Shown here piece after piece: positions 308 through 43,914 of a DNA stretch of 64,000 nucleotides. The stretch spans positions 1 to 64,000 of the forward strand of contig NZ_PBYA01000026.1 of the NCBI RefSeq assembly GCF_002729955.1, in the 5' to 3' direction. Under the pieces are notes generated by a model. That model searched no databases and was not told the origin of the DNA. It worked only from the letters and a program-made list of their open reading frames with translations. The stretch's first letter is position 1. Every line of letters starts with the position of its first letter. This DNA is from Salinisphaera sp. Lineage in GTDB: Bacteria; Pseudomonadota; Gammaproteobacteria; Nevskiales; Salinisphaeraceae. A program made the translations under genes and the position numbers.

Positions 308-1165
308 TTACATCGACGATTCGCTGCGATTGGCCTCGCTGTCGTTCATGCTCGAACCCGTGGCGCCTTCGCCGTTCGACATGCCGGCATCGCCGCTGTT
401 GGCGTTCGAATCCATGCCGGCGTCGTCGGCTTCGGCAATACCGATCACGCCACAGGCCTGACGCGAACCGGCGGCGCCGATCGGCGGCTGGCTCGGATCG
501 TTGGCTTTCTCATGGATGATCACGCCGCGGCCGATCAGCGCCTTGGCGCCGGTCAGCGAAGCGCCGTCGAGCATGCCCTCGTCGGAGGCGGTGCCGTCTT
601 CGCCAACGTCGAGATCACCCAGGTCGCCGGTGATGCGGTCGATATCGGCCGGCGGGTTCTTGGAGCTGCCCTGCAGGTTGAAGTGGGTACCGGCAGACTT
701 GCCATCGCCCGACGAGCAATCGCCGTAGAGATGGATATGGTAGCCGTGCTTGCCGGGCTCGAGCCCTTCCGCTTCGGTGGTATAGGCCAGACCGCCGTCC
801 TGCGGGGTGAAGCGGATCGTGGCCGACACGCCGTCGTTGCCCTCGGTGCCGTGCAGTACGGCGACTGCCGCACGCGGCATGTCTTCACTGGCCGTGCTAT
901 TGGCGGCGCTGCCATCGGCCGGGCTGTTGCGATGGCCGTCCAGCATCGTGTCGTCGCCCATCTGCGATTCGTTACCCGTCTGGGGCGCGGTCTCGGTGGC
1001 GGTGTCGTTGCTGTTCTCGCTGGCCGTATTGGTCTGGGCGTCGGGGCTGGTGTTCGCCGTATCGGCGGCAGCGGCATCGTTGTTCTGATCGTCGTTGTTG
1101 CCGCATGCGGTCAGGCTCATGGCCAGCAGCATGGCAGCGGAAACGGAGACTACGGATTTCATCAT
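308..1165 (-). CDS. SodC-like Cu/Zn superoxide dismutase family lipoprotein, zinc site degenerate
   Basis: This 285-residue protein starts at a tandem ATG-ATG (1165/1162) preceded by AAGGA; an upstream in-frame extension to 1270 lacks a signal and overlaps the next gene. A signal peptide ends in lipobox LTAC (Cys21), so it is probably a lipoprotein. A low-complexity Asn/Asp/Ala/Thr stretch (about 23-98) leads to a SodC domain (about 99-245). Copper ligands are present: His143 and His145 (GYHIH), His161 (GTHFN) and His218 (VIIHEKAND). The disulfide pair Cys150/Cys238, the zinc-type Asp181 (GDLG) and the catalytic Arg235 (GSRQACG) are also kept. The two other zinc histidines expected between GTHFN and GDLG are absent. 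The C-terminal 40 residues are Ser/Asn/Gly/Met-rich. The expected role is envelope superoxide dismutation, possibly as a copper-only enzyme. Confidence 0.85.
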   Translation of the reverse strand: MMKSVVSVSAAMLLAMSLTACGNNDDQNNDAAAADTANTSPDAQTNTASENSNDTATETAPQTGNESQMGDDTMLDGHRNSPADGSAANSTASEDMPRAAVAVLHGTEGNDGVSATIRFTPQDGGLAYTTEAEGLEPGKHGYHIHLYGDCSSGDGKSAGTHFNLQGSSKNPPADIDRITGDLGDLDVGEDGTASDEGMLDGASLTGAKALIGRGVIIHEKANDPSQPPIGAAGSRQACGVIGIAEADDAGMDSNANSGDAGMSNGEGATGSSMNDSEANRSESSM

Positions 1166-1223: not shown

Positions 1224-1649
1224 TCAGCCAAGACTTGCGTGCAGCCGCGCGACGATGGCTTCGGCGTCATGCGCGTCGGTGAACAAATCGGCGTAATGGG
1301 CCTGCATCCAGCCGCCCAGCTCGGCGCGGCGGGTGTTCAGCAGATCGGCCAGTGCGGCGATGTTCTCGCCACCGCCGACGGCGGCCTCGCGGCGCAGCGG
1401 ATCGCGCTGGGAATCCACGAACGCCACGGTTTGTTGGTAGCGCGGCGTGTTCGGCTCGGTGACCGATGCATCAGTGGTGCCACGGCTGCTGGCCAGTACG
1501 CCTTTTGCGACCGACCGGGTTACCTCGGCGGCCACGTCGGTCGTGCTGATCGCGGCCGAGCAGCCGCCCAGCAGCGTTGTGGCTGCCAGCAATGCGACAG
1601 GCAGCACGTGTTTGCCCCTCGCCGGTGCGCGGTTGAATCTGACAATCAA
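1224..1649 (-). CDS. Small predicted lipoprotein, DUF3015-like C-terminus
   Basis: A 141-residue protein with the only workable start a TTG at 1649, preceded by a GGGGG-rich purine stretch. The N-terminus has basic residues, a hydrophobic run and lipobox LLGGC (Cys about 30), so it is probably a membrane-anchored periplasmic lipoprotein. The mature part has no catalytic signature. Its end (ENIAALADLLN followed by WMQAHYADLF) resembles the helical C-terminus of DUF3015 proteins, but it is shorter than usual and the match is tentative. It lies 58 bases upstream of the SodC-like gene on the same strand, so the two could be cotranscribed. Function unknown. Confidence 0.6.
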   Translation of the reverse strand: MIVRFNRAPARGKHVLPVALLAATTLLGGCSAAISTTDVAAEVTRSVAKGVLASSRGTTDASVTEPNTPRYQQTVAFVDSQRDPLRREAAVGGGENIAALADLLNTRRAELGGWMQAHYADLFTDAHDAEAIVARLHASLG

Positions 1650-40569: not shown

Positions 40570-40654
40570 GAGCGCTTCTCGTCGAAAAAGCGCGATGTTA
40601 TATCATCGCGAGCCGCCGTGCCCGGTTTGACGCAAGCGACGACGCCGCCCGCGC

Positions 40655-42798: not shown

Positions 42799-43914
42799 AT
42801 GGCCGAAACGCACGAAGATGAAAAGCAGCCGCGCGAACATGACGTAATGCGCCTGTTCGAACGACCGATCCAGATTCGCTCGTTCATCATGACCGCGATT
42901 CTGGTCATCCTGCTGCTCTATACGCTGTATTTCGCGCGTTTCATCTTCATACCGGTCGCGCTCGCGCTGATCTTCAACCTGCTGCTCGGCCCGGTGGTTA
43001 CCCGCATGCAGCGGTTCTATATCCCGCGCTGGATCAGTGCCCTGCTGCTCATCGGCAGCTTCGCGGCCATCGTCGCCTACGGCTGCTACATGCTCATGGG
43101 CCCGGCGCAATACTGGATCAAGCACGCGCCCGAGGCGTTCACCTCCTTCGAGGAAAAGACGTCCCAGCTGCAGCAGCAGATCCAGGACATGAACGAAAGC
43201 ACCGAGGAGATCAAGAAGGCCGCGACCAAGATGATCGGCAAGGCCGCCAATCAGGGCCAGACCATCAGCATCAACGACGAGACCCTGCGCGACCAGATCG
43301 TGACCAACCTGCAGTGGACGGGCGGCATCCTGTTCATGACCCTGATCATGCTCTACTTCATGCTCTGCGGGCGCGGTTTCGTGTTCCGAAAACTGCTGAT
43401 CATGACGCGAACAGGGCGAAGTCGGCGCAATGCGGTACGTATCGTGCGGCATCTGCAGAGTGATATCAGCCGCTATCTGCTCACTGTCACCGCGATCAAC
43501 ATCTTGCTGGGCGCCAGCGTTGCCCTGGTGCTGTGGCTGATCGGCCTGTCCGATCCCATGCTCTGGGGCGTGCTCGTGGGCGTACTCAATTTCGCCCCCT
43601 ATGCCGGCGCCGCGATCTCGCTGGCCGCGATCACGCTGGCCTCATTCGCCACCTTCGATACGCTCGGCCACGTGCTCGCCGCCCCCGCGGCCGTATTCGC
43701 GCTCAACGTGCTCGAAGGCAATTTCGTCACCCCGGCCATCCACGGCCAGCGTTTCGAGATGAGCCCCTTGATGGTGTTCTTTGCCCTGTTCTTCTGGGGC
43801 TGGCTGTGGGGTGTGGCCGGCATGCTCATGGCAGTGCCGTTGCTGGTGGTATGCAAGGTCACCTGCGACCACATCGAGGAACTGCGCCCCGTTGGACGCC
43901 TGCTCGGGCGCTAG
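42799..43914 (+). CDS. AI-2E family transporter (TqsA/PerM-like)
   Basis: From ATG 42799 (GGAG upstream) the protein has 371 residues and about seven to eight helices. The long predicted coiled-coil loop (about 125-175, EKTSQLQQQIQDMNESTEE) and the C-terminal block GVLVGVLNFAPYAG followed by EGNFVTPAIHG and WGVAGMLMAVPLLV are typical of the family. Members export the autoinducer AI-2 or act as Na+/H+ antiporters or permeases; substrate not determinable. Its stop overlaps the convergent MerR stop by four bases. Confidence 0.88.
   Translation: MAETHEDEKQPREHDVMRLFERPIQIRSFIMTAILVILLLYTLYFARFIFIPVALALIFNLLLGPVVTRMQRFYIPRWISALLLIGSFAAIVAYGCYMLMGPAQYWIKHAPEAFTSFEEKTSQLQQQIQDMNESTEEIKKAATKMIGKAANQGQTISINDETLRDQIVTNLQWTGGILFMTLIMLYFMLCGRGFVFRKLLIMTRTGRSRRNAVRIVRHLQSDISRYLLTVTAINILLGASVALVLWLIGLSDPMLWGVLVGVLNFAPYAGAAISLAAITLASFATFDTLGHVLAAPAAVFALNVLEGNFVTPAIHGQRFEMSPLMVFFALFFWGWLWGVAGMLMAVPLLVVCKVTCDHIEELRPVGRLLGR

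Follow-up and report, generated by a model that had tools for sequence, protein, structure and literature searches.

A zinc-less clade of eukaryote-like superoxide dismutases, probably copper-only, in Salinisphaeraceae and myxobacteria

Introduction

In canonical copper-zinc superoxide dismutases (SODs), zinc holds the bridging histidine once it has been released from Cu(I), and Asp124 links the two metal sites. The stretch of DNA analyzed here (64,000 nucleotides, hereafter the window), from the salt-loving bacterium Salinisphaera, contains a gene for a SodC-like protein. A preliminary description had noted that its copper ligands are present and its zinc site is broken, an observation on which our alignment, ortholog search and clade survey agree. 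The locus raises the question of whether such a protein is an active SOD that works with copper alone, a zinc-binding enzyme with substitute ligands, a copper-binding protein that has lost SOD function, or a decaying pseudo-enzyme.

Gene and protein organization

The nearest named relatives are from Salinisphaera. The Pfam Sod_Cu match (PF00080) spans residues 113–241 and scores 107.3 bits, compared to a curated cut-off of 28.9. The coordinates, strand and residue numbers of the preliminary description were correct and are retained in the following list of features.

308–1165, reverse strand: coding sequence of the zinc-less SodC (P0001, 285 residues plus stop), a Sod_Cu protein (open reading frame; Pfam Sod_Cu, E = 1e-30)
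1106–1165, reverse strand: predicted signal peptide, residues 1–20, read from the translation; lipobox LTA-C, with Cys21 at 1103–1105
881–1105, reverse strand: N-terminal low-complexity acidic linker, residues 21–95 (75 residues, net charge −14; composition)
428–880, reverse strand: Sod_Cu domain, taken as residues 96–246 (alignment; model pLDDT 87.2)
737–739, reverse strand: His143, copper ligand (H46; alignment)
731–733, reverse strand: His145, copper ligand (H48; alignment)
683–685, reverse strand: His161, copper ligand and former bridging histidine (H63; alignment)
512–514, reverse strand: His218, copper ligand (H120; alignment)
623–682, reverse strand: former zinc loop, residues 162–181 (alignment and clade comparison)
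659–661, 632–634 and 623–625, reverse strand: Lys169 (H71 position), Ile178 (H80 position) and Asp181 (D83 position)
500–502, reverse strand: Asn222, aligned with Asp124 (Asn throughout the 14 clade members, in none of 217 others)
716–718, reverse strand: Cys150, disulfide (alignment)
452–454, reverse strand: Cys238, disulfide (alignment)
461–463, reverse strand: Arg235, active-site arginine (R143; alignment)
311–427, reverse strand: C-terminal Ser/Gly/Asp-rich tail, residues 247–285 (39 residues; composition)
1224–1649, reverse strand: small putative lipoprotein (open reading frame; DUF3015 match, E = 1.5e-7), a possible co-transcribed neighbor upstream of sodC

The stretch GGAAAGGA lies 5' of the ATGATG at the start of sodC. 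The DUF3015-like gene ends 58 bases ahead of sodC on the same strand, and a similar gene also precedes sodC at two other loci, L030 and L031. This neighbor may be co-transcribed and is not known to belong to the enzyme; among the loci whose neighborhoods were compared, no partner gene is kept across the clade. A Zur-like palindrome was not found near sodC: the only match in the window to the pattern with up to three mismatches is at 40596, with 1.78 matches expected in the window. The same genome encodes a second SodC on another contig, and visual inspection shows the usual zinc ligands in it.

The metal site

Alignment to a SodC structure, the check that the preliminary description had suggested, was carried out with BbCuZnSOD (PDB code 7b4o). 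The metal region aligns without gaps, with SHGAPMDMSRHIGDLG of 7b4o opposite SKNPPADIDRITGDLG of the window's protein. His143, His145, His161 and His218 align with human H46, H48, H63 and H120, and Cys150, Cys238 and Arg235 with human C57, C146 and R143. The presence of all four copper ligands, the disulfide cysteines and the active-site arginine is therefore confirmed, as is the loss of the two zinc-only histidines, which are replaced by Lys169 (H71) and Ile178 (H80). The remaining zinc ligand, D83, is matched by Asp181. The Asp124 position is also changed, to Asn222, a replacement absent from the preliminary description.

Predicted fold

An AlphaFold2 model of the monomer, calculated from a 42-row alignment that includes 32 environmental viral SODs, has eight strands and a mean pLDDT of 87.2, with a mean of 52 for the loop block (model residues 71–80). 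An earlier model from 11 similar sequences had a pLDDT of 65.4, with values below 50 for residues 52–81. The best structural match is 7b4o, with a Z-score of 24.0 and an rmsd of 1.5 Å for 143 aligned residues (42% identity); the top two Foldseek hits are 7b4p and 7b4o. Among bacterial entries of the PDB, 7b4o is also the closest match in sequence. No solved copper-only SOD was present among the best 50 fold matches or the best 60 sequence matches listed.

Distribution of the zinc-less type

The loss of the zinc site is common to 14 distinct sequences, including that of the window, from 11 Salinisphaeraceae and three myxobacterial genomes. Among 61 genomes searched at the protein level, 10 of the 14 from the genus have an ortholog, as does one of three others from the family; both zinc histidines are absent from all 11 orthologs. 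A scan of 84,980 species genomes with two peptide patterns, which is not exhaustive and would miss two of the myxobacterial members (L209 and L210), returned 10 loci, nine from Salinisphaeraceae and one from a MAG (L038). One of the nine (L031) was placed by its 89% identity: the gene is of Salinisphaera type but the record is titled Endozoicomonas sp. G2_2, a name that may be wrong. Many of the scanned loci are in the same genomes as those from the protein search, and the clade count of 14 refers to distinct sequences.

Among 57 genomes of the class of L038, matches were found in 15 and clade members in three (the genome of L038 and those of L209 and L210). MYXO-CTERM domains occur in all six genomes tested from this class, including the three carriers, compared to none of 14 control genomes, and the class is therefore taken to belong to Myxococcota. 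A search of 282 Myxococcota genomes gave matches in 48 and no further clade member among the places examined (38 of 50 were fetched). Searches of the window's own class (369 genomes) and phylum (398 genomes) gave SodC matches in 66 and 108 genomes, respectively. An IMG/VR search with the clade alignment yielded 12 stretches that matched a pattern, none of which encoded a relative; 13 plasmid records matched, with identities below 60% throughout the 10 of these 13 that were listed.

Pooling these genome searches gave a survey of 252 SodC domains, 231 of them distinct; it leaves out 64 viral loci, one fragment each of the class and phylum searches, and the second SodC of the window's genome (L002), which is below the domain threshold. 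The four copper histidines are kept in 223 of the 231, and the 14 of these 223 that lack both zinc-only histidines, where any His within the loop segment was accepted as H71, are exactly the members of this clade. All 14 retain the four copper ligands, the disulfide and the active-site Arg and have lost H71 and H80, and the D83 position is occupied by Asp in nine and Asn in five. This sets them apart from CuZnSODs in the strict sense, which have H71, H80 and D83 as zinc ligands next to H63. The Asp124 position is Asn in every clade member and in none of the 217 other sampled SodCs, 211 of which have Asp. A sequencing error or a one-off change is ruled out by the recurrence of the same states in 14 genomes.

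Several other variants were observed in the survey. Eight of the 231 domains lack copper ligands; two of these are halves of one gene (L017/L024, G044:C1:3666588–3667011), a sodC split over two reading frames by a frameshift or a sequencing error. At three loci from one family of the class (L080, L132 and L176), H46 is replaced by Gln, H63 by Val and R143 by Ala, such that both metal sites are degenerate. At L028 (G015:C47:43870–44247, beside 43116–43559), a conventional SodC adjoins a SodC-like domain that has lost its copper ligands; the same genome encodes a member of the zinc-less type. Finally, the H80 position is taken by Asp in 14 domains and by Glu in 10, and all 24 still have a His in the H71 segment (L056, L083, L089, L090, L097, L110, L137, L145, L154, L163, L164, L171, L175, L177, L180, L182, L184, L185, L186, L187, L195, L199, L200 and L202). 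Of these, 21 come from genomes that belong to the phylum but to classes other than the window's, and Glu at the H80 position coincides with the position of fungal E110.

Predicted membrane anchor and low-complexity arms

Lipoproteins with a Gly at position +2 after the lipobox Cys are sorted to the outer membrane, and the lipobox LTAC followed by Gly predicts this location for the window's protein, as the preliminary description had proposed. The prediction applies to this protein and does not extend to the whole clade: three of the 14 members (L010–L012) have plain signal peptides with no lipobox by eye. Lipidation is therefore not part of the type, and anchoring is not essential. The preliminary description had also called a bacterial lipoprotein version with low-complexity arms at both ends unusual. 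These arms vary between species, and the domain reaches to within about seven residues of the C-terminus in L013, L038, L209 and L210; they look variable and ordinary. The linker may hold the SOD domain away from its membrane anchor.

Origin and selection

A branch with support of 100/100 separates the 14 sequences from all others when 79 SOD domains are placed in a tree. Support remains 99/96 after removal of the columns of the zinc loop and the Asp124 region, in a tree of 60 of the 79 rows, the other 19 (long-branch rows and near copies) having been dropped. The clade falls among myxobacterial and eukaryote-like SODs, and neither the 79-row nor the 60-row tree settles its sister group. The deep forks within the clade are weak (56/39 in the 60-row tree) and give no direction of transfer between the phyla. 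The dN/dS ratio is 0.05–0.45 in all 45 pairs of 10 genus members, and 0.05–0.06 for the window's gene against its two closest relatives. Judged from these sequence comparisons, the genus members are under purifying selection and the clade has one shared origin.

Relationship to eukaryote-like bacterial SODs

According to PMC8382915, BbCuZnSOD is the structure of group 3a of the eukaryote-like bacterial SODs, and the metal ligands are kept in all 34 proteins of that paper. Fold and sequence place the window's domain with these eukaryote-like (E-class, group 3a) bacterial SODs. An E-class homodimer is a further mark of the group; the model here covers the monomer. A Gly-Asp-Cys-Thr/Ser tetrad and a Gly at human position 150 occur in 14 of 14 clade members, compared to 14 of 217 other domains that pass the same three patterns. 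In loop VII, His218 and Arg235 are separated by 16 residues, the same number as in 7b4o and compared to 22 in 8jd8 (counted by eye). The clade thus shares with BbCuZnSOD and group 3a, as described in PMC8382915, the closest sequence and fold, the tetrad, Gly150 and the length of loop VII; it differs from them in the absence of H71, H80 and Asp124, and in the lipobox that is recognizable by eye in 11 of its 14 members. It looks like a zinc-less offshoot of the group 3a type.

The remodeled zinc loop and alternative functions

Within residues 162–181, the residues that are invariant in the clade are Asn163, Gly166-Ser167-Ser168, Pro171-Pro172, Ile175 and Ile178-Thr179-Gly180, and the loop is therefore under a constraint of its own. 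Asp174 and Asp176 are present in 12 of 14 members, including all 11 from Salinisphaeraceae, and Asp181 in nine of 14. L209 and L210 lack all three aspartates, but retain the rest of the loop signature.

These aspartates, together with the invariant His161, could in principle still bind zinc in the remodeled loop (e.g. via His161, Asp181, Asp174 or Asp176, and a water molecule). As Asp174 and Asp176 are kept throughout the Salinisphaeraceae members, they may serve as substitute ligands in that family. The 24 SodCs in the survey with an acidic residue in place of H80 indicate that such ligand swaps do happen. However, none of the Asp, Glu, His or Cys residues of the loop is common to all 14 members, none of the three aspartates is found in L209 and L210, and the linking Asp124 is also lost, so that we consider binding of zinc through substitute ligands unlikely.

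The retention of the copper site without the zinc site, in a genome that has another SodC, could also indicate a lipoprotein that binds copper for buffering or delivery and has lost its SOD function. CCS, a SOD domain with a role in copper delivery, provides a precedent, but it is the copper ligands that CCS has lost, not the zinc ligands, as described in PMC13017621. In addition, all 14 members keep the active-site Arg, and their loop VII is as long as in BbCuZnSOD (judged by eye); a role confined to copper handling appears a little less credible still than substitute zinc ligands. A decaying or inactive pseudo-enzyme, as the lost zinc ligands and the second SodC might suggest, is highly improbable, since dN/dS of 0.05–0.45 rules out decay, the copper site and Arg are invariant in two phyla and derive from one shared origin, and the truly degenerate SodCs of the survey (L080, L132 and L176) lose copper ligands and Arg instead.

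Comparison with known copper-only SODs

Mycobacterium tuberculosis SodC, which is cited as copper-only, resembles the clade in being bacterial, in having copper without zinc (predicted here) and in keeping loop VII. It differs in that the window's domain scores 49.9 bits against the mycobacterial family model (NCBIfam SodCMycob), far below the cut-off of 230, which rules out a copper-only SOD of mycobacterial type. Fungal copper-only SODs are marked, according to PMC13017621, by the loss of loop VII and by an E110/D113 pair. In the clade, the E110 position is Ile in all 14 members, the D113 position is Asp in nine and Asn in five, and loop VII is not deleted; the fungal type is ruled out on these grounds. 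Thus, the clade is similar to Candida albicans SOD5, as that enzyme is described in PMC13017621, in its lost zinc site, its retained copper site and disulfide and its extracytoplasmic setting (predicted for the clade), but differs in lacking the E110/D113 pair and in having loop VII.

The literature bears out the earlier remark that fungi and mycobacteria have copper-only SODs (PMC13017621, PMC4712152 and PMC8633580). The accompanying view that such an enzyme would be unusual in a bacterial envelope has to be toned down, given two reports. Deinococcus radiodurans DR_0644 is described as a copper-only SOD of the cell envelope, with three His named as copper ligands compared to four in the window's protein (PMC9823218), and in a reported assay the SodC of Acinetobacter baumannii used Cu but not Zn, which by that report makes it likewise zinc-independent (PMC12398933); both were compared by description only. 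The SOD of Megavirus chiliensis, a viral protein, reportedly carries mutations by which zinc can no longer bind (PMC8382915), and is likened to the clade by description only. A literature search, which most subscription papers fell outside, found no publication on zinc-less SODs of Salinisphaera or myxobacteria. Copper-only SODs are therefore already known in bacteria, and what is new here is the zinc-less clade of Salinisphaeraceae and myxobacteria.

Proposed function and implications

The copper site is kept and the zinc site lost across a small family, and copper alone is thus probably the cofactor. We favor, with reasonable confidence, an envelope-attached copper-only SOD that arose from a group 3a E-class CuZnSOD by coordinated dismantling of the zinc site; based on the residues conserved, the protein most likely works with copper alone as an active SOD. 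The ancestor would have been a eukaryote-like bacterial CuZnSOD of this class, and the zinc site would have been lost in the ancestor of the clade now found in Salinisphaeraceae and some myxobacteria. In this coordinated change, H71 and H80 would have been replaced, the linking Asp124 converted to Asn and D83 freed to vary. The copper ligands, the disulfide and the active-site Arg would have been retained, along with a loop VII matching that of BbCuZnSOD in length.

In the established chemistry of SODs, copper bound by four histidines near the active-site Arg (here Arg235) alternates between Cu(II) and Cu(I) as it reacts with superoxide. The protein would probably dismutate superoxide by this cycle outside the cytoplasm, with His161 as a plain copper ligand. 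Without zinc, His161 would have to be held otherwise; our guess is that Asn222 and the invariant Ser/Thr residues of the loop hold both His161 and His143. As the fungal E110/D113 solution is absent, activity without zinc cannot be read by analogy. The title of a cited study describes zinc-free Cu,Zn-SOD as folded but inactive, which counts against copper-only activity, as do the zinc ligands of the other SodC in the genome and the presence of Asp174 and Asp176 in 12 of 14 members. Independence from zinc is a plausible benefit.

More tentatively, and with some doubt, the clade may represent a separate bacterial copper-only lineage that took its own route from the E-class, with loop VII kept, a neutral network (Asn222 and the invariant Ser/Thr of the loop) to hold the former bridging histidine in place of the fungal Glu/Asp pair, and a passage between Myxococcota and Salinisphaeraceae.

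Labeling the members of this clade "Cu-Zn" is probably incorrect. They provide a natural case of an E-class SOD, the class to which human SOD1 belongs, without zinc ligands and with the copper site and loop VII intact. Pairing them with BbCuZnSOD makes the role of zinc in catalysis and stability, and life without zinc, directly testable.
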